From Phycisphaerae bacterium (lineage in GTDB: Bacteria > Planctomycetota > Phycisphaerae > UBA1845 > UTPLA1): DNA of 8,918 bases. Of this stretch, positions 16-8,563 are shown piece by piece (within the stretch, counting starts at the first letter, position 1; every line of letters starts with the position of its first letter). The stretch spans positions 1-8,918 of the forward strand of contig JAFGQA010000308.1 of NCBI GenBank assembly GCA_016935885.1, given 5' to 3'. A model generated the notes under the pieces. That model did no database searches. It was not told the origin of the DNA and was given only the letters and a program-made list of their open reading frames with translations. Made by a program: the position numbers and the translations under genes.

Positions 16-69
16 CTGTGGCACCGCCGTCTCGGCGGTGGATTCACGGGCGAGACGCCCGTGCCACAG
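16..69. repeat. Twin-hairpin palindromic repeat (CTGTGGCAC family)
   Basis: Two hairpins stand head to head. The first has a 7-bp stem CACCGCC (22-28) / GGCGGTG (34-40) with loop GTCTC. The second has stem CACGGGC (45-51) / GCCCGTG (57-63) with loop GAGAC, the reverse complement of the first loop, so the second hairpin is an inverted copy of the first. Both are enclosed by a perfect 9-bp inverted repeat, CTGTGGCAC (16-24) / GTGCCACAG (61-69). This resembles a REP/BIME arrangement. Further copies lie at 8479-8500 (20 of 22 bases identical to 19-40) and, degenerate, at 6766-6787. Confidence 0.85.
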
Positions 70-107
70 TCACAGGCAAGCGTGAACAGCTCTAGCGGTC
101 GAACGGA

Positions 108-280: not shown

Positions 281-360
281 CCGCTGGTGCGAGAATCCCT
301 TCCCGCCGCTGGTGCGAGAATCCCTTCCCCGCTGCTGGTGCGAGAATCCTTTCTCGCACC
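281..360. repeat. Tandem GAGAATCCCTTC repeats ending in a perfect hairpin
   Basis: Three units follow one another with spacings of 25 and 26 bases, each carrying GGTGCGAGAATCC (from 286, 311 and 337). The first two are half-palindromes, running on as CCTTCCC instead of CTTTCTCGC. The third is completed into a perfect hairpin: stem GGTGCGAGAA (337-346) / TTCTCGCACC (351-360), loop TCCT. Two further complete hairpins of the family lie at 395-418 and 6703-6726. The array is too short and too palindromic to be CRISPR. Confidence 0.85.
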
Positions 361-394: not shown

Positions 395-432
395 GGGCCG
401 AGAAGGGATTCTCGGCCCAGGGATTCTCGGGG
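395..432. repeat. GAGAAGGGATTCTC hairpin plus partial copy
   Basis: A perfect 10-bp stem GGGCCGAGAA (395-404) / TTCTCGGCCC (409-418) surrounds the loop GGGA. It is the same family as the hairpin at 337-360 in the opposite orientation: the loop is complementary in type, and the core GAGAA/TTCTC is shared. The outer five pairs differ but remain fully paired. Directly after it, 419-431 repeats the right half (AGGGATTCTCGGG), suggesting a truncated second copy or slippage. Confidence 0.85.
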
Positions 433-475
433 CAGCGGAGGCACCGCCGCAATGCGAGCGGGGGGATCGGGATGG

Positions 476-531: not shown

Positions 532-3500
532 ATGGCGAGGAAACGCAGGGGCAGCCCGGAAGACGCAGCCAAGTGGCGTATCCAGAAGGCCGCCCGGACC
601 GGGGCGGCGTCGTTGAACCTGTCGGACCTCGGGCTCACATCGCTCCCCCCGGAGATCGGCGGCCTGGCCAACCTGACGGAACTGGACCTCCGCGGCAACC
701 GACTCACGTCGCTCCCGCCAGAGATCGGCGGCCTGGCCAACCTGACGGCGCTGCGACTTGATGGCAACCAACTCACGTCGCTCCCGCCGGAGATCGGCGG
801 CTTGGCCAGCCTGACGGGACTGGGCCTCAGCGGAAACCAACTCACCTCGCTCTCGCCGGAGATCGGCCGCCTGGCCAATCTGACGCACCTGGGCCTCAGC
901 AGGAATCGACTCACGTCGCTCGCGCCGGAGATCGGTGGCCTGGCCAACCTGACGACGCTGTGGCTCGATCAGAACCAGCTCACGTCCGTCCCACCGGAGA
1001 TCGGCGGCTTGGCCAACCTGACCAGGCTGGACCTGAGCGGGAATCAACTCGCGTCGCTCTCGCCGGAGATCGGCGGCCTGGCCGACCTGACGATGCTGTG
1101 GCTCAACATGAACCAACTCACGTCGCTCCCGCCGGAGATCGGCCGCCTGGCCAACCTGACGACGCTGTGGCTTCACAGCAATCAACTCACGTCGCTCCCG
1201 CCGGAGATCGGCGGCCTGGCCAACCTGACGACGCTGTGGCTCCACGAGAACCAGCTCACGTCGCTCCCGCCGGAGTTGGGCAAGCTACGGAACGTGAAGG
1301 CGCTATCGCTGCTGGGCAATCCCCTGCCCGATGCACTGATCGAGCTTGCGGAGAGGGACGTCCGCGCCGCCCTGGCCTTCATCCGCGATCAGGGCGTCGA
1401 AGGCGGCGAGCCGCTGCACGAGGCCAAGCTCGTGCTGGTCGGCGAGGGGGACGTCGGCAAGACCTGTCTGCTGCGGGCGCTCCAGGGCAGGCCGTTTGAG
1501 CACCAGCCGACGACCAAGGGCATGGAGGTCGCCCGCGAGCCGCTGCCCCTGCCGCACCCCGAGGCCGACGCGACGATCATGCTCAACGCCTGGGACTTCG
1601 GCGGGCAGAAGGACTACCAGATCACGCACCAGTTCTTCTTCAGCCCGCGGTCGCTGTACCTGGTCGTGTGGGACCCGCGGAGCGGGCACGAGAAGTGCGA
1701 CGTGGACGGCTGGATCGGCCGCATCCGCCTGCGGGTCGGCGAGGACGCCACGATCCTCGTCGTCGCCACGCACTGCCGCACGGGCGACCCGCCGCCGGGC
1801 GTCAACATCGACAAGGATGAGCTCCTCCGCAAGCACGGCGACGTCATCGCCGGCTTCTTTGAGACGGACAGCTACGAAGACGAGCACACGCAGCGGTTCG
1901 GCATCGATGACTTGCGCGAGGCGATCGCCACGCATGCTGCCAAGCTGCGCGGCATGGGCGATCGGCTGCCGCCCAGTTGGAAGAGGGCCCGCGAGCAGGT
2001 CCTGGGCCTGGCAAAGAAGAACACGCCGTGGATCGCGCGTGAGCAATTCACGAAGATCTGCCGCGACGCCGGCCTAGCCGACGACGCGACGAGGGGCCTG
2101 CTGTTCCTGCTGCACGAACTCGGCCTGATCGTCTACTTCGGCGCCGGCCCCTCCGCGCCCTCCGCGCCTCTGCGTGAGACCCAACGAGACGGCGACCGCC
2201 GCCTCGGCGACGTGGTGATCCTGATGCCCGAGTGGCTCGCCAAGGCGGTCTGCTTCGTGATCGAGGATCAGGAGACGCGGAATGCCTCGGGCGTGCTGCG
2301 CTACGAGCGGCTCAAGAAGATCTGGCACGACGACCGCAAGCGCGACGCAAGGTACGAGCCCAAGCTGTACCCCTATTTCCTCGCGATCATGGAGAAGTAC
2401 GACGTGTGCTACCGGCTGGAGGATGGCCGCAGCAGCTTGGTGCCGCAGTTGATCAAGCGTGGCCGGCCGAAGGGCCTGCCGTGGTATCCCGAGCAGGAGC
2501 CGGGGCGGGTGCCGCAACTGGCGTTGTCGTGCGAGATGGACGAGGTGCCACCGGGGCTGGTCCCGTTGATGATCGTCCGCACGCACCGCTTCTCGAAGGA
2601 GGACACGCATTGGGAGCTGGGGGCGTTTCTCAACTACCACGACTACGGCACGGCCCACATGGCGCTGGTGGATCGCGAGCTGATGTTCACCGTCCGCGGC
2701 GAGTACCCGCCGCACTTCATGACGCTGCTCGCGGACAGCTTCGAGGTGCTGGTGGGCGACGTCTGGCCGGGCCTGAAGGCGCGGTATCGGTTCTCGGTGC
2801 CATGTCCGGAAAGAGACGAGCACGGCAGGTCCTGCTTGGGGCGTCTCAAGCTCGAAACCCTCCGCAAGACGAGGAAGAAGAGGACCAGGTCGGGAGCAAA
2901 GGTCGAGGAGACCCCGTGCCCCGAATGTGCCGAAATGCTCGATATCGATGGCCTGCTGGATGGCCGTGAGGCGCAGGGCCGCAGCCCGGAGCAGCGGATC
3001 GAACACATTGAGGCTCTTACCGAGGACCTGATGGAGCAGGCGAAGCTACACGCGAGTTTCGCCGCTGAACAGTTTCGCCTCATCCTCGCCTCGATGCACA
3101 ACGAGACGGCCGCCGGGCCGGGGATGTTCACGCTGCTGCCCGAGGACGGGAAATGGCTCAAGGTCCAAGGCAAGCGCCGCTATCGGCTGACGCTGTGGTG
3201 CGAGTACCCGGAGTGCCCGCACCCGCTGTGCAAGATCGGCAGCGGCGGCGAGGGCGAGTACACGTTCGACCGCTCCGCCGACTGGCTGATCAAGGTCGCC
3301 CCCGCGATTACCTGGACGGCGCGAGCACTGAAGGTCGCCCTGCCCATCACCAGCGGCGTGATCCAGGCCGGGTTGGACGAATGGGACTTGGCGGGCCTCA
3401 AGCCCAAGCTTGACCTGATGGAGAAGTGTGCCCGTGCCGTGCCCGGCGGCGAGCTCGAGACGCTCGGCGGGGCCGAGCGCCCTACGGGCTTCTTCAAGCG

Positions 3501-3666
3501 GCCGGAAGGCGCCGGGCTCCGCGAGTTCCACGACTTACTGGAGGCGGAGGTGAAGGGACGTGCGTGGGGCGGTCTGCAGCGGGTGCTCACGAAGACGGGC
3601 GATTACCTGTGGCTCTGCCCCGAGCACTACGCCGAATTCGAGCCTGAACTGCCGAAGCTGCCTTGA
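532..3666 (+). CDS. Roco protein: leucine-rich repeats, Roc GTPase, COR domain
   Basis: This is a 1044-residue cytoplasmic protein of the Roco (LRR-Roc-COR) family, GTPases that dimerise through COR; the physiological roles of bacterial members are mostly unknown. Residues 35-264 hold ten 23-residue leucine-rich repeats of consensus LTSLPPEIGGLANLT. The Roc domain (about 297-470) has a P-loop GEGDVGKT (304-311), a switch II motif WDFGGQ (354-359) and THCR at 413-416, where many GTPases have NKxD or THxD. COR follows (about 480-755). Cysteine pairs at 758/768 and 796/799 could form a zinc site, and a C-terminal region contains a second cluster (C890, C895, C900, C1029). There is no kinase domain, unlike human LRRK2. 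Ten uniform LRRs suggest recognition of a ligand or partner. A repeat-derived insert of about 20 residues (538-557) interrupts COR. The start is fixed by GGAGGAG 7 nt upstream. The secreted-protein gene begins 28 nt after the stop, so co-transcription is likely. Family call is near certain; biological role unknown. Confidence 0.95.
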   Translation: MARKRRGSPEDAAKWRIQKAARTGAASLNLSDLGLTSLPPEIGGLANLTELDLRGNRLTSLPPEIGGLANLTALRLDGNQLTSLPPEIGGLASLTGLGLSGNQLTSLSPEIGRLANLTHLGLSRNRLTSLAPEIGGLANLTTLWLDQNQLTSVPPEIGGLANLTRLDLSGNQLASLSPEIGGLADLTMLWLNMNQLTSLPPEIGRLANLTTLWLHSNQLTSLPPEIGGLANLTTLWLHENQLTSLPPELGKLRNVKALSLLGNPLPDALIELAERDVRAALAFIRDQGVEGGEPLHEAKLVLVGEGDVGKTCLLRALQGRPFEHQPTTKGMEVAREPLPLPHPEADATIMLNAWDFGGQKDYQITHQFFFSPRSLYLVVWDPRSGHEKCDVDGWIGRIRLRVGEDATILVVATHCRTGDPPPGVNIDKDELLRKHGDVIAGFFETDSYEDEHTQRFGIDDLREAIATHAAKLRGMGDRLPPSWKRAREQVLGLAKKNTPWIAREQFTKICRDAGLADDATRGLLFLLHELGLIVYFGAGPSAPSAPLRETQRDGDRRLGDVVILMPEWLAKAVCFVIEDQETRNASGVLRYERLKKIWHDDRKRDARYEPKLYPYFLAIMEKYDVCYRLEDGRSSLVPQLIKRGRPKGLPWYPEQEPGRVPQLALSCEMDEVPPGLVPLMIVRTHRFSKEDTHWELGAFLNYHDYGTAHMALVDRELMFTVRGEYPPHFMTLLADSFEVLVGDVWPGLKARYRFSVPCPERDEHGRSCLGRLKLETLRKTRKKRTRSGAKVEETPCPECAEMLDIDGLLDGREAQGRSPEQRIEHIEALTEDLMEQAKLHASFAAEQFRLILASMHNETAAGPGMFTLLPEDGKWLKVQGKRRYRLTLWCEYPECPHPLCKIGSGGEGEYTFDRSADWLIKVAPAITWTARALKVALPITSGVIQAGLDEWDLAGLKPKLDLMEKCARAVPGGELETLGGAERPTGFFKRPEGAGLREFHDLLEAEVKGRAWGGLQRVLTKTGDYLWLCPEHYAEFEPELPKLP
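634..1323 (+). repeat. Ten tandem 69-bp repeats encoding the LRR array
   Basis: The leucine-rich repeats are nearly identical at DNA level as well as in protein. The segment CTCACGTCGCTCCCGCCGGA and the following GGCGGCCTGGCCAACCTGAC recur with few changes every 69 bases. Differences cluster at the variable solvent-exposed positions (LxLxxN). Period 69 is a multiple of three, so units can be gained or lost without a frameshift. Such homogeneity points to recent duplication or gene conversion and makes repeat-number variation between strains likely. The last unit (about 1255-1323) is more diverged. Confidence 0.9.
2151..2177 (+). repeat. Short 9-bp tandem repeat inserted in the COR coding region
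   Basis: CTCCGCGCC occurs twice in exact tandem (2151-2159, 2160-2168), followed by a related TCTGCGTGA (2169-2177). The block is translated as PSAPSAPLRE (about residues 540-549), lying between the conserved COR strands IVYFG and LGDVVILMPEWL. Other COR domains have a short loop here, as far as I recall, so this looks like an in-frame insert. The CCTCTGCGTGAGA tail resembles a short repeat I associate from memory with many planctomycete and cyanobacterial intergenic regions; that association is unverified. Confidence 0.5.
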
Positions 3667-3694: not shown

Positions 3695-6600
3695 GTGCGC
3701 GCATCCAGATCAACCGAGTTGACGGTCCTCCTTTCACTCGTGGCCTTGGCCATCACGCCGATCGGTTTGGCAGCGGCCTTCGGTGCCCCGCCGGACAAGC
3801 CCAAGGCCCCCCCCGCGTCCCAGAAGGCCGACGACCCCTGGCAGGCCCTGGACCCCGTCGTGCGGGCGACCAACCGGGGCGTGGCCCTGATGGAGAAGTA
3901 CGAGTACGCCGAGGCGGTCAAGGCATTCGAGCAGGCGGCCAAGCTGGCCCCAGGCTCCGCGGCGGTTCGGGTCAACCTCGCGATCTCCCTATACAACCGC
4001 AACGCCAAGGGCGATCTTCAACGGGCCGAGAAGCTGTTTGACGAGGTCCTGCGCGACGAGCCGGAGAACGCCCGTGCGCTGTACTTCCGCGGCATCACCC
4101 ACCAGTACGGCGGGCGGGACGAGCAGGCCATCGCCTGTTTTGAGCGGGTCGTCAAGCTCGTGCCGCAGGATGCCTGTGCCTGGTACCTGCTGGCCCGTAG
4201 CAAGGCGCACGTCGGGCAGCCGTGCCGCGCGGAGTTGGAGCGGTCAATCAAGGAGAATCCCGCATTGGCCAGCGCGTACTACGACCTGATGCGCGTCGCC
4301 GCGCAGGAAGGCAAGCAGGACGAGGCGAAGGTCCTCCAGCAGCAGTTCGTCAAGCTGCGCCAAAGCCCGCTTTGCGAGATGGTGACGATGCCGCACTATC
4401 GGCAGATGGGGCCGCTGGCGGTGGTGCAGCCCGTCACCGGCCGGCCCCGGCGACCCGTGACGAGCGGAGAGCTGTCCTCCGGCCCGCCGCGGACGCTGTG
4501 GAAAGGGGATGCGAAGAAGAAAACACGGGACGTCCGACTGGACAAGAAGATATCCGAATTCGACATTGGCGTGGCCGCGGCGGACGTGAACGGGGACGGC
4601 CTACTCGATCTGGCGCCCGTCGCAGCCTTCGCGGAAGGCGCCGGCGGCGTGATGATCCTGTTGGGCCAACCGGATCAGACGTTCACCCGAGTCGCCGGGA
4701 TGTCGATCCTGACGGATATTCACCGGGCCATATCGTATGCGTTCGGTGACTACGACAACGACGGCAACGTCGATCTCTTCGTGAGTTGTTGGGGGCCCAA
4801 CTACCTGTTTCGCGGCCACGGAGACGGCACGTTCGAGGACGTAACCGCCAAGACGAACACTGCCGGTCCGAACGCAATGACCGTATCCGCGGTATTCCTC
4901 GATGCAGATCACGATGGAGATTTGGACATATACGCCTGCAACGCTGAAAGCTCGGTCCGGCCCATCGAAGCGACCTCCAACCAGCTTCTGAACAACAACG
5001 CGGATGGCACGTTTACCGACATCGCGGGCAGCGCCGGCGTGGCTTGCGCCAAGGACTACAGTGGGATGATGGCGCCTGCGGACATCGACGGTGATCGCGA
5101 TGCCGATTTGGTTGTATTCAACACGGGTGCCCCGGCGCGGGTCTTCTTCAATGACCGCCTAGGCAAGTACCACGCAGGACAGATCTCCACGGAGCCGATT
5201 CGAGCGGCCACGGTCCGAGGCGGTGTGGTGCAGGACTTCAACGGCGACGGTCGACCGGACGTGCTGACCTTGCCGATTCCGCTCACGGCGAGCCGTTTGT
5301 TTCTGACCGATGGAACCGGAGCGGTCCGGCCCAGCCCGCAGTTTGAGGAATGTCTCAAAGCCTTGGCCACATGGGGAGATATCCATCTCTCACGTGTGGC
5401 AGACATCGACTTGGACGGCGATCTCGACGTCATTCTATTGGGTCGCGCGGGCCACGTGCTGCTCAACGACGGGTGGGGACGCTTCGTGGCCAAGCCAAAC
5501 GTCTGGCCGACGGCATTGACCGACGAGACCGTCGCGGCGGACGTGATCGACCTGACCGGCGATGGCGTGCCCGATCTGCTGCGGGTCACCGCCGCCGGCA
5601 GCGAGGCGGTCGAACTCGTTCCGACGAAGCTGACCCCGCCCGCGAATTGGCTGGCCATCACGCCGACCGGTGACCGGGGCGTCGACAAGCGCACACGCAG
5701 CCCGGCCAGCGGGTTCGGCACGCGAATCGAGTTGCGCTGCGGCCTGCACAGCCAGGTGATGACGTACACCGGGCTCAACGGCAGCTTGAGCCAGTCGTGT
5801 GTGCCCCTGGTCTTCGGATTGAACGGGGCGACGAAGTCGGACTACGTGGCGTTTACCTGGCCGGACGGTGTGACACAGTGCGAGAACGAGCTGGCCGCGA
5901 ACACGCACCACCGGATCAGCGAAATGGAACGGCGGGTGTCGAGCTGTCCGGTGCTGTTTGCATGGAACGGCGAGCGTTTCGGCTTCATCGGCGATTTCGC
6001 GGGCGTCGGCGGGCTCGGCTACTACGTGGCCCCCGGCGAGTACGCCCCGCCGCAGCCTCTCGAACACGTCAAGATCGAGCCGCAGCAGTTGGTCGCTCGA
6101 GACGGCTTCTACGAGTTGCGGGTGTGCGAACCCATGGAGGAGGTCGCCTACGTCGATCGGCTCGAGTTGCTTGCCGTCGACCATCCGCGGGGACTTCGCA
6201 TCTATCCCGATGAGCGGCTGGCCATCACCGGCCCCCCGCCGACGCACAGGCTATTGTGTCCGCGGGAGCCCGTCTTTCCCCTCCGGGCCACGGCGCCGGA
6301 CGGCACTGACTGCACCGCGAACTTGGTCGAAGTGGATCGCGTGTACGCGTACCAACCGCAGCTCGATCGGCGCTTCGTGGGTTTCTGCCGGCCGCACTCG
6401 CTGGTGTTGGACTTCGAGGATCGCCTGGCTGACTTGGCCCTCGATCAGGCCGCGCGGGCTGAGGCCCGCGGCACGTGTTCGGGGACGGGGCGAAACACCT
6501 ATCTGTTTCTGAACGGTTCGATCGAGTATCCCTATTCGCAGACGACCTTCGCCGCTGCCCAGGCGGGCGTGGCGTGGGAACCGATGCAGATAGAATGGCA

Positions 6601-7360
6601 GGCCGACGACGGCCAATGGGAGACGATCGTCCCCGACGCTGGCGCGCCAGGCGGCATGGGCCGAACGATCGCAATTGACCTAACAGGCAAGTTGCCATCC
6701 CTGTGCCGAGAATCCCTTCTCGGCACTGGCCCAACGAACGGGCCGACGACCGGAGCCGATTCTCATGGCACACGTGTCTCGCCTGTGTCTCCGCCACGTG
6801 GACGGCGACCCCACATCAAGCTGCGCATTACGACAAACCTCGAGATCTATTACGACCAGGTATTCATCGCCGCCGACCGCGGAACGGATGACTTCGAGAT
6901 CAGGACGGTCCCAATGGCGGGGGCAGACCTTCGCCGGCTTGGCTTTCCGTTGGAATACTCTCCGGACGGCCGCCACCCAACGATTTACACGTACGACGTC
7001 ATCCAGCCGACGTCTTCGTTCAAGATGCCGCGCGGCGCCTACACGCGCTATGGCCCGGTGGAGGGCTTGCTCGCCGAGTTCGACGACCGCTACGTCATCC
7101 TTGGCACCGGTGACGAGATCGCGGTCAGGTTTGACGCGCGCGAGTTGCCGCCAGTTACGGAAGGGCACGTTCGCAGCTTCGTTCTCGTTTCACACGCCTA
7201 CTGCAAGGACATGGACCTGTACACCGCTGAGCCGGACACCGTCGAGCCGCTGCCGTTCCGGAACATGGGCGAGTATCCTTATTCTCCTAGCGAGCACGAA
7301 CCCGACGGCGACGAGCTCCGCCGGTATCGGCAGCGATTCAACACGCGCGCGACGCCGTAG
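3695..7360 (+). CDS. Secreted TPR, FG-GAP/VCBS and ASPIC/UnbV repeat protein (CRTAC1-like)
   Basis: This is a 1221-residue exported protein. A signal peptide (basic start, hydrophobic 9-28, likely cleavage around 28-31) is followed by a Pro/Lys linker. Residues 55-222 form about four or five tetratricopeptide repeats. Residues 288-640 are an FG-GAP/VCBS domain with seven calcium-binding-type motifs (for example DVNGDGLLD, DYDNDGNVD, DIDLDGDLD), the pattern of a beta-propeller. The ASPIC/UnbV domain (about 650-730) shows GFGTRIEL, VFGL and WPDG. From 751 (CPVLFAWNGERFGFIGDF) to the end is a long C-terminal region that I recall in planctomycete and acidobacterial relatives. The role is probably extracytoplasmic protein or glycan binding; no catalytic residues are evident. 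It lies 28 nt after the Roco gene, probably the same operon. Oddly, residues about 920-933 and 1002-1039 are encoded by palindromic repeats inserted in frame. GTG start supported by AGGGAG and the signal peptide. Domain calls are confident; function is not. Confidence 0.9.
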   Translation: MRASRSTELTVLLSLVALAITPIGLAAAFGAPPDKPKAPPASQKADDPWQALDPVVRATNRGVALMEKYEYAEAVKAFEQAAKLAPGSAAVRVNLAISLYNRNAKGDLQRAEKLFDEVLRDEPENARALYFRGITHQYGGRDEQAIACFERVVKLVPQDACAWYLLARSKAHVGQPCRAELERSIKENPALASAYYDLMRVAAQEGKQDEAKVLQQQFVKLRQSPLCEMVTMPHYRQMGPLAVVQPVTGRPRRPVTSGELSSGPPRTLWKGDAKKKTRDVRLDKKISEFDIGVAAADVNGDGLLDLAPVAAFAEGAGGVMILLGQPDQTFTRVAGMSILTDIHRAISYAFGDYDNDGNVDLFVSCWGPNYLFRGHGDGTFEDVTAKTNTAGPNAMTVSAVFLDADHDGDLDIYACNAESSVRPIEATSNQLLNNNADGTFTDIAGSAGVACAKDYSGMMAPADIDGDRDADLVVFNTGAPARVFFNDRLGKYHAGQISTEPIRAATVRGGVVQDFNGDGRPDVLTLPIPLTASRLFLTDGTGAVRPSPQFEECLKALATWGDIHLSRVADIDLDGDLDVILLGRAGHVLLNDGWGRFVAKPNVWPTALTDETVAADVIDLTGDGVPDLLRVTAAGSEAVELVPTKLTPPANWLAITPTGDRGVDKRTRSPASGFGTRIELRCGLHSQVMTYTGLNGSLSQSCVPLVFGLNGATKSDYVAFTWPDGVTQCENELAANTHHRISEMERRVSSCPVLFAWNGERFGFIGDFAGVGGLGYYVAPGEYAPPQPLEHVKIEPQQLVARDGFYELRVCEPMEEVAYVDRLELLAVDHPRGLRIYPDERLAITGPPPTHRLLCPREPVFPLRATAPDGTDCTANLVEVDRVYAYQPQLDRRFVGFCRPHSLVLDFEDRLADLALDQAARAEARGTCSGTGRNTYLFLNGSIEYPYSQTTFAAAQAGVAWEPMQIEWQADDGQWETIVPDAGAPGGMGRTIAIDLTGKLPSLCRESLLGTGPTNGPTTGADSHGTRVSPVSPPRGRRPHIKLRITTNLEIYYDQVFIAADRGTDDFEIRTVPMAGADLRRLGFPLEYSPDGRHPTIYTYDVIQPTSSFKMPRGAYTRYGPVEGLLAEFDDRYVILGTGDEIAVRFDARELPPVTEGHVRSFVLVSHAYCKDMDLYTAEPDTVEPLPFRNMGEYPYSPSEHEPDGDELRRYRQRFNTRATP
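6453..6470. repeat. GC hairpin within the secreted-protein gene
   Basis: CGCGGGC (6453-6459), loop TGAG, GCCCGCG (6464-6470) form a perfect 7-bp hairpin followed by GCACGTG. It is translated as part of AARAEARGTCSGTG (about residues 920-933), an Ala/Arg/Gly stretch between the strand SLVLDF and the conserved YLFLNGSIEYPYS. The low-complexity composition differs from its surroundings, suggesting that a small palindrome was inserted or expanded in frame. Confidence 0.6.
6703..6726. repeat. GAGAATCCCTTCTC hairpin inside the coding sequence
   Basis: A perfect 10-bp stem GTGCCGAGAA (6703-6712) / TTCTCGGCAC (6717-6726) surrounds the loop TCCC. It belongs to the same family as the intergenic hairpins at 337-360 and 395-418, with the same core and different but fully paired outer bases. 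It is read in frame as CRESLLGT, right after the conserved block ending DLTGKLP. A smaller GGCCC/GGGCC hairpin (6728-6732 / 6740-6744) follows within the same insert. Confidence 0.88.
6766..6787 (+). repeat. Degenerate GGCAC-GTCTCGCC repeat inside the coding sequence
   Basis: The 22 bases match 18 of 22 positions of the repeat at 8479-8500, including TGGCAC and GTGTCTCGCC-like cores. The stem is decayed compared with the intergenic copies. It is translated as HGTRVSPV (around residues 1024-1031), in the same foreign-looking insert as the hairpin at 6703-6726, just before the conserved block KLRITTNLEIYYDQVFI. Confidence 0.6.
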
Positions 7361-7484: not shown

Positions 7485-8387
7485 ATGAGATCGCAAACCG
7501 AACAGACGTACCAGGAACGCATCTTGCGCGTGTTGGTTCATATCCAGGGCTGTCTTGACGAGGCGTTGTCGCTGGATGGATTGGCGCGAATCGCCCATTT
7601 CTCGCCGTTTCACTTTCACCGCATCTTTCGCGGCATGGTCGGTGAATCCGTCAAGGAGCACGTCAGGAGGCTGCGCCTGGAGCGGGCAGCGTTCCGGCTG
7701 AAGACCACGGACCACTCGGTCACCCAGATCGCCTTCGATGCCGGATACGAGACCCACGAGGCCTTCACGCGCAGGTTCCGGGCCATGTTCGACGAATCGC
7801 CCTCGGCCTTCCGCGAGATTCATCGAGCAGTGCCTTACCCGCCCTCTCCCTGCGGCGTGCATTTCGATCCCGACGGTCGGGTCGCGCGCTTTGAACCACT
7901 GAGAGAAGGAACATTACCGATGGAAGTGCGAATCAAGAACATCGAGCCGATGCGCGTGGCCTTCATGCGGCACGTGGGACCGTACGATCAGGTCGGCGAG
8001 ACGTGGAATAAGTTGTGCGCGTGGGCGGGCCCGCGCGGATTGCTGGGCCCGCAGACCACGCCGCTGGGCCTCTGCCACGACGATCCGGACGTCACGCCGG
8101 CGGACAAGATCCGCTATGATGCCTGCCTTCCGGTTGATGCGTCGTTCAAGCCGGAGGGCGACGTCGGCGTGCAGGAGATAGACGGCGGTGAGTACGCAGT
8201 AGCGACGCACCATGGACCCTATGAGAGACTGTCCGAGACATACGCGCAGCTATGCGGACAATGGTTGCCGTCGAGCGGCCGTGAGTTGCGGTCCTCGCCG
8301 CCTCTCGAGGTTTACCGCAACTCGCCGCACAACACGGCGCCGGAGGATTTGATAACGGAAATCCATCTACCGCTGAAGGCGAAGTAG
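7485..8387 (+). CDS. AraC-family transcriptional regulator with GyrI-like effector domain
   Basis: This is a 300-residue regulator. Residues 10-112 form the AraC/XylS DNA-binding domain with two helix-turn-helix units: about 28-50 (LDGLARIAHFSPFHFHRIFR) and 79-110 (VTQIAFDAGYETHEAFTRRF, then the family signature around FDESPSAFR). Residues 146-298 form a GyrI-like (SbmC/Rob C-terminal type) domain, with the two half-repeats opening VRIKNIEPMRVAFMRHVGPY and VGVQEIDGGEYAVATHHGPY, the DDPDVTPADKIRYDACLPV block, and the ending LEVYRNSP then LITEIHLPL. Such domains bind small hydrophobic or amphipathic molecules, so a ligand-responsive activator of efflux or stress genes is a reasonable inference. 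The DNA-binding domain comes first, as in E. coli Rob and unlike most AraC members. Its length is typical and it looks intact. The start is supported by GGGAGG. Its targets are not evident; it need not regulate the two genes upstream. Confidence 0.93.
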   Translation: MRSQTEQTYQERILRVLVHIQGCLDEALSLDGLARIAHFSPFHFHRIFRGMVGESVKEHVRRLRLERAAFRLKTTDHSVTQIAFDAGYETHEAFTRRFRAMFDESPSAFREIHRAVPYPPSPCGVHFDPDGRVARFEPLREGTLPMEVRIKNIEPMRVAFMRHVGPYDQVGETWNKLCAWAGPRGLLGPQTTPLGLCHDDPDVTPADKIRYDACLPVDASFKPEGDVGVQEIDGGEYAVATHHGPYERLSETYAQLCGQWLPSSGRELRSSPPLEVYRNSPHNTAPEDLITEIHLPLKAK

Positions 8388-8455: not shown

Positions 8456-8563
8456 CCTAGCAGCCCGTGGCAAAACTGTGGCACCGGCGTCTCGCCGGTG
8501 GTTTTTACGGTCAAAAACGGCGTTTCCGATCCGCTGTCTTCCCTTTTACCACGGGCTGCTAGG
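8456..8563. repeat. MITE-like element with 20-bp terminal inverted repeats
   Basis: CCTAGCAGCCCGTGG (8456-8470) is the exact reverse complement of 8549-8563, and pairing continues to 8475/8544 with a single mismatch, so 19 of 20 bases match. The 68-bp interior carries a CTGTGGCAC-family hairpin (8482-8500) and a small GTTTTT/AAAAAC stem near 8502-8518. It encodes no protein. The size, terminal inverted repeats and lack of genes fit a miniature non-autonomous element. No clear target duplication flanks it (GTCA left, CGGC right). It may also act as a two-way transcription barrier between the AraC gene and the converging small minus-strand gene. Confidence 0.75.
8482..8500. repeat. Hairpin of the CTGTGGCAC family nested in the MITE-like element
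   Basis: Stem CACCGGC (8482-8488) / GCCGGTG (8494-8500) with loop GTCTC. Compared with the hairpin at 22-40, one stem base and its partner have both changed (CACCGCC/GGCGGTG there), keeping the pairing. The leading CTGTGG (8476-8481) is also shared. Confidence 0.85.

Follow-up and report, generated by a model that had tools for sequence, protein, structure and literature searches.

Translated REP-like palindromes in a loop of a Phycisphaerae TPR/FG-GAP protein and in unrelated genes of related genomes

Introduction

In a 2025 survey, as far as its accessible text goes, REPs are defined as elements that seldom overlap coding regions (PMC12306157). REPs inside ORFs are described from several species, predominantly from Opitutus terrae and Rickettsia conorii, in the accessible part of the work of Di Nocera and colleagues (PMC3733652). 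In the same text, the in-ORF inserts are given as 20-30 residues long (43-82 in clusters), the recB genes of two Xanthomonas species carry REP inserts at about the same site, several REP families coexist in R. baltica, and GTGG is the tag of most GTAG-20 elements of O. terrae. Since in-frame REPs have already been published there, the phenomenon itself is known. For the Rickettsia palindromic elements (RPEs), the available portions of two reviews (PMC10969869, PMC2229807) give a size range of 105-146 bp and report that a guanylate kinase with an RPE insert stayed active with a changed substrate affinity.

We analysed a stretch of 8,918 nucleotides (the window) from a Phycisphaerae bacterium, in which palindromes of two families, termed A and B, lie both between genes and within a long protein gene. 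Like the GTAG/CGTC intragenic REPs portrayed in the accessible text of PMC3733652, these palindromes are short, carry a tag, often form inverted pairs and lie chiefly between genes, with some in frame in conserved genes. In contrast to those REPs, the tag of family B is GCTG (the apparent tag of family A is GTGG, as in most O. terrae GTAG-20 elements), and here the same loops of a single protein family have been filled over and over by different repeat families. The likeness to RPEs, as the available review text describes them, is one of description and not of sequence: a 108-bp element of the window lies within the RPE size range, has terminal inverted repeats and is fused in frame, as near full-length copies, in a relative's genes for a DUF58 and a GT87 protein, but the phylum is different, more than one reading frame is used, and most of the palindrome copies tested lie outside genes. 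Tagged hairpins in +/- pairs are a trait shared with REPIN/RAYT systems, as is the Y1_Tnp gene that one genome has between inverted copies; the differences are the tag, the presence of copies on both sides at one RAYT locus only, and that mobilisation here is inferred. The original prediction had likened the palindromes to the Rickettsia elements and expected a separate, unrelated family. In substance the prediction holds. The elements are nearer to REP/RAYT elements, for which translated in-gene copies have been published, also from Verrucomicrobia, than to a phenomenon wholly apart. In the literature searched, mostly non-subscription, we found no account of translated in-gene palindromes in Phycisphaerae. 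What is new here are these families, the lineage of their host and the loops that were hit more than once; the translation of REP/MITE-type elements itself is known.

Results and Discussion

The host gene and its inserted segment

The host gene (Table 1) is an ORF of 1221 codons without a stop, and the C-terminal query of its protein is 74% identical to the homologue P0002. Its label as a secreted protein is based on a hydrophobic N-terminus judged by eye. Residue numbers of the insert are counted from the assumed GTG start at 3695. The segment had been predicted at residues 1002-1039 without disturbance of the frame; the frame is indeed open all through 6698-6817, and the homologue alignment moved the end of the segment to residue 1041. 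Compared with the modal homologue, the segment adds a net 36 or so residues (47 vs 11 in the alignment slice). Of its 120 bases, 74 can be attributed to one intact palindrome of family B and an inverted family A pair in decay; the 39 bases between them are left unassigned.

In an AlphaFold (AF2) model of the C-terminal part of the host protein (mean pLDDT 72.6), the insert corresponds to fragment residues 254-293, placed between the strands 242-247 and 293-301, and pLDDT falls below 50 at fragment residues 262-268 and 278-284. The fold of this part had no confident match in the PDB (best E 6.3e-3, TM 0.14). On either side of the host gene, the window encodes a leucine-rich-repeat Roc-COR protein (532-3666; Pfam LRR, Roc, COR-A, COR-B) and a protein with an AraC-type HTH and a GyrI-like effector-binding domain (7485-8387; Pfam).

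Palindromes within the window

The hairpin predicted at 6703-6726 (GTGCCGAGAATCCCTTCTCGGCAC) is a perfect 24-nt palindrome with a 10-bp stem (z -5.4), and none of 200 shuffles folded as well. Its predicted kinship with the intergenic copies was confirmed: positions 389-424 and 6697-6732 are 92% complementary over 36 nt, and family B cores (at most two mismatches) lie at 291, 316, 342 and 400, outside predicted genes, as well as at 6708, inside the host gene.

A second stretch, 6766-6787, had been called a decayed copy. The term is apt, since hairpin folding has been lost here (z +0.66), whereas the extent had been given too short: 36 of the 50 bases of 6766-6815 are identical, without gaps, to the reverse complement of the family A pair at about 16-70. 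The alignment score was 44, against a maximum of 37 for 94 other pieces of the gene and a mean of 27.5 and maximum of 43 for 200 shuffles, so the margin of the match over the shuffles is small. The original prediction had overlooked a second insert in the host protein (about 6437-6499) as well as the 108-bp element at 8456-8563, whose inverted ends match at 95% and within which the family A copy at 8478 lies.

Table 1. Coordinates of the host gene, its insert-bearing loops and the repeat elements in the window
Feature	Position	Strand	Description and basis
Host gene	3695..7360	+	1221-aa TPR + FG-GAP + UnbV_ASPIC protein; Pfam matches; GTG start at 3695 assumed
Inserted translated segment	6698..6817	+	Residues 1002-1041; homologue alignment
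Family B palindrome (REP-like)	6703..6726	+	Read as CRESLLGT; 5' tag CCTG, not GCTG
Decayed inverted pair of family A	6766..6815	-	Read as GTRVSPVSPPRGRRPH; like stretch in homologue P0006
Second insert-bearing loop (site 1)	6437..6499	+	Residues 915-935; imperfect palindrome 6449-6472 with 7-bp stem
Three family B copies	284..360	+	Between predicted genes; 337-360 intact, other two with one arm decayed
Family B reverse copy (395-418), then half copy (419-443)	395..443	-	Sequence matching
Family A inverted pair	16..70	.	Outside predicted genes
108-bp element	8456..8563	.	Ends in 20-bp inverted repeats; contains one family A palindrome

Empty and filled loops in homologues

The C-terminal query retrieved 2,885 homologues, of which the 120 listed were all aligned, giving 121 rows with the window protein (P0001). 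At the loop of the insert (the first loop, or site 2), the length is 11 residues in 106 of the 121 rows and 10 or 12 in a further three. The absence of the segment from most homologues, expected by the original prediction, was thus found in 109 of the 120 listed. Twelve of the 121 rows, the window protein included, have at least 16 residues at this loop. Among the filled loops, P0006 carries the A pair alone (GTGVSPVSPPPRRRCHT) in the same frame in which the window protein carries A and B, the insert of P0039 has two RES units typical of family B, and that of P0017 starts with LLRESLVDG. The second loop (residues 915-935) has 13 residues in 105 of the 121 rows of the slice and 28 in the window protein.

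On a tree of 60 rows built without both insert sites, the long forms call for no fewer than 10 changes at the first loop (12 long rows) and 9 at the second (10 long rows). Support is weak near P0001 (29 of 57 inner branches are open), so that P0006 may have lost B, or A may have entered twice. Inserts of at least six residues in at least two rows were also found in N-terminal linkers and at residues 270, 275, 423, 506 and 632; past residue 632, such inserts are confined to the two loops. Judged from the sequences, both loops were filled several times over, with words from three repeat families. This is one of two unusual features of the system, the other being the share of family A copies that lie in genes of one relative (see below).

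Several further inserts bear on the range of sequences involved. The core of site 1 in the window protein, CGGGCTGAGGCCCG, was tried as a repeat family and rejected, having 0-1 exact copies per genome in 10 relatives. In the DNA of L004 and L007 at site 1, and of L003 at site 2, we found no intact family A or B unit; the start of the L003 site 2 insert, CTGCGGGAGTCCC, may be a decayed variant of B. The site 2 insert of P0023 (LAREGEAPSEPR), the site 1 insert of P0035 (PSPLTKGGKRG) and the tandem RVAHRFSGGGH unit at residue 632 of P0029 and P0055 resemble translated repeats and may represent further families.

Repeat families in related genomes

The search for relatives yielded 268 stretches, 237 of them relatives; 80 loci were kept, and the genomes behind 16 loci were searched. 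The copy numbers below are those of the relatives' genomes and not of the window's own host genome. With at most one mismatch, family B reached 66 copies in G001, 151 in G002, 58 in G003, 93 in G004 and 28 in G008, and 0-5 copies in the other 11 of the 16 genomes; a control with the reversed pattern gave 0-2 per genome. The repeated core that had been predicted is therefore of high copy number in five of the 16 relatives. Family A, searched in ten genomes, had 290 copies in G003, 40 in G010, 25 in G006, 9 in G005, 7 in G004 and one in G002, with none in the remaining four and none in the control. A third pattern, family C, taken from the insert of P0003 (SPKRQGEG...PVACAPGS), was found 80 times in G003, 64 times in G007 and 0-24 times in the other eight genomes.

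The conserved 5' tag of family B, at -7 to -4 before CGAGAA, is GCTG in 101 of 111 copies (G001 and G002 loci), and not the GTAG or CGTC of described REPs. For family A, GTGG was found in 47 of 47 copies at loci chosen with a pattern starting with GTGG. Of 31 close pairs of B, 24 are in +/- orientation, seven in the same orientation and none in -/+. Like REPs, family B is a short palindrome of high copy number which lies mainly outside genes. In G003, scoring of 40 out of 456 candidates for the 108-bp element produced 50 matching pieces, the best at 92% over 106 bases; another four of the ten genomes gave mainly short hits on the A core, and G001, G002, G007, G008 and G009 gave no match. With its inverted ends and many matching pieces the element may be of the MITE type; no target site duplication was established.

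Copies inside and between genes

Copies were assigned to genes by codon usage on both flanks, with coding-like flanks of at least 25 codons required on each side; under this rule, copies near gene ends are overlooked. For family B we tested the copies at all 66 places in G001 and all 28 in G008, 24 in G004 (93 places), and 74 unique copies in G002 (151 places; 69 with long enough flanks). For family A we tested 55 copies in G003 (290 places), in 40 regions chosen for flank length. At control positions away from the repeats in the same loci, 47-62% passed as coding.

Five B copies were flagged as lying in genes and one of these was rejected, leaving four of the 192 tested, from which it follows that family B is mainly extragenic. 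The rejected copy (GAGAATCCCTTTTC; G008, L264) lacks complementary arms and is part of an ordinary gene. None of the 74 copies in G002 was found in a gene, nor was any of the 28 in G008 after this rejection or either of two B copies in the tested G003 regions. The B copies in genes comprise one in an RHS-type gene of G001 (with an RHS core match downstream of the insert and no Pfam match, the upstream side being judged by eye) and, in G004, a tandem pair of units within an XPB-like helicase and a single unit within a methylmalonyl-CoA mutase. For family A in G003, 11 copies were flagged and eight were verified in seven genes (of 55 tested, about 15%), by family or structure matches spanning or flanking the insert; L288, L294 and L300 were left out of the verified set, as were additional opposite-strand readings in L288, L269(+) and L308(+). 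These genes encode KARI, MnmE, a protein kinase, a BcrAD protein, an ABC2 permease (two units), a DUF58 protein and a GT87 protein. As the in-gene shares are below those of the control positions, both families avoid genes, B strongly and A less. The predicted invasion of genes by intergenic palindromes does occur, though for B in a small minority of copies, and in-frame copies of both families extend to unrelated genes. The frames used include GTGVSPV, TGETPVP and HRRDAGAT for A, and RESLL, EKGFS and RRDS for B.

Empty sites were found for two of these genes. The KARI (ilvC) of G003 carries the 18-residue insert MGGTGVSPVGRIRDCPAV, with nothing at the exact gap in the 119 other listed rows; in four of these rows, unlike inserts of 6-30 residues are located one residue before it; two solved KARI chains in the alignment are without the insert, and the G003 genome gave a single KARI match, i.e., this is the only ilvC found there. 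The 50-residue insert of the DUF58 protein of G003 is missing from the 119 other listed rows, one of which has a different 14-residue insert nearby. The 108-bp element is present nearly in full both in the DUF58 gene and, in another reading frame, in the GT87 gene. For GT87 and the genes beyond KARI and DUF58, the assignment is based on family or structure matches and not on empty sites.

A RAYT-type transposase gene

At L132:1573-2118 of G002, we found a 181-residue ORF with a Y1_Tnp match of RAYT type, flanked by a B(+) copy at 1501, 58 bp upstream, and by B(-) copies at 2156 and 2214, the first after 37 bp. On the evidence of this sequence, the locus has the layout of a REP-associated transposase, a Y1/HUH gene between inverted REPs, and it is the one locus at which family B shows it. 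Among the other RAYT loci examined, some have B on one side at a distance and most have no B. Kin of the L132 protein in other genomes are 23-43% identical, with no close orthologue in the other nine genomes. The KARI gene (L308, G003 C63) and the methylmalonyl-CoA mutase gene (L272, G004 C313) lie at most about 0.4 kb from a Y1_Tnp (RAYT-type) match, and their in-gene repeats about 1 kb and 0.5 kb from it, respectively.

Origin of the inserted segment

The repeat families, their copy number in relatives, the in-gene copies in several frames and the empty loops of homologues are direct observations. From them we consider it highly probable that palindromic mobile elements of the REP/MITE class gave rise to the segment, having entered a tolerant loop where they have been kept as a translated, probably disordered extension. 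The elements would be moved by a Y1 (HUH) transposase of RAYT type or by some other transposase acting on single strands, and most insertions into coding DNA would be lost. The survivors would be those that keep the frame in exposed loops, helped by the stop-free units of A and B. In the host protein, an A pair, found in P0006 as well, probably came first unless A entered twice, and the B unit followed later. Most likely, the inserted peptide has no function of its own.

A selected role of the palindrome-derived peptide or of the mRNA hairpin (e.g., pausing translation between domains) would offer a reason for the repeated hits on the loops of this protein family and for the A-like part common to the window protein and P0006. 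Such co-option appears improbable to us, since the inserts vary in sequence, length and family, most listed homologues have no insert, and the decay of the A hairpin is as expected under neutrality.

Even less probable, in our estimate, is that the loop is a hypervariable low-complexity linker whose likeness to palindromes arose by chance in GC-rich DNA. The 25 long inserts hold 31 four-letter words derived from the A, B and C repeats, where shuffles gave 5.5 on average and 14 at most; their density is 34.9 per 1000 residues, compared with 4.06 across whole proteins. The B unit is moreover a perfect 24-nt palindrome with matching copies elsewhere in the window, and the same families are found inside unrelated genes. 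Counted by insert the signal is less clear, and here the linker reading finds some room: 11 of the 25 inserts contain at least one such word, which the best of 500 shuffles equalled (mean 4.4, max 11), none was recognised in the other 14, and the decayed A pair scored narrowly above its 200 shuffles (44 vs 43). Least probable of all is a pseudogene or mis-assembly with accumulated repeats, for which it speaks that the window is known from a single contig, and against which stand the 1221 codons without a stop, the 74% identity to P0002 over the C-terminal query and the like insert in the only ilvC of a relative.

Coding potential of the units and consequences

With mobile palindromes in a tolerant loop as the preferred reading, the coding potential of the units deserves attention. 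The consensus units of A and B have no stop codon in any of the six frames, and their tags GTGG and GCTG, unlike GTAG, contain no TAG stop. Six open frames are unremarkable as such, being common in shuffles of GC-rich units (73% of shuffled A units and 19% of shuffled B units). When GTAG replaces the tag, one frame is closed, and for B it is the RESLL frame, the one read in the window. It is conceivable, although we think it rather doubtful, that the REP/MITE units of this lineage are a standing supply of stop-free linker modules and that loops grow by stepwise accretion of different families. If so, the in-gene frequency of such repeats across bacteria would track the coding potential of their tags.

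Phycisphaerae-like Planctomycetota can be added to the bacterial groups with palindromic repeats translated within genes. With loops that are empty in some members and filled in others, the protein family offers a natural set on which the tolerance, layering and decay of translated mobile DNA can be measured. For annotators, recurring GTGVSPV, TGETPVP and RESLL peptides in this group represent repeat DNA and not domains.

Additional observations on MnmE and KARI

The MnmE gene of G003 (L314:1853-3160) contains more than one GTGVSPV-like insert and scored far below the NCBIfam cut-off; from its sequence, the gene may be decaying. The KARI homologues P0123, P0221, P0226 and P0232 carry different long inserts at two positions, one of them beside the G003 site. 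At G008:C1:2742000-2742431, a KARI_C match has one TAG within an open frame.
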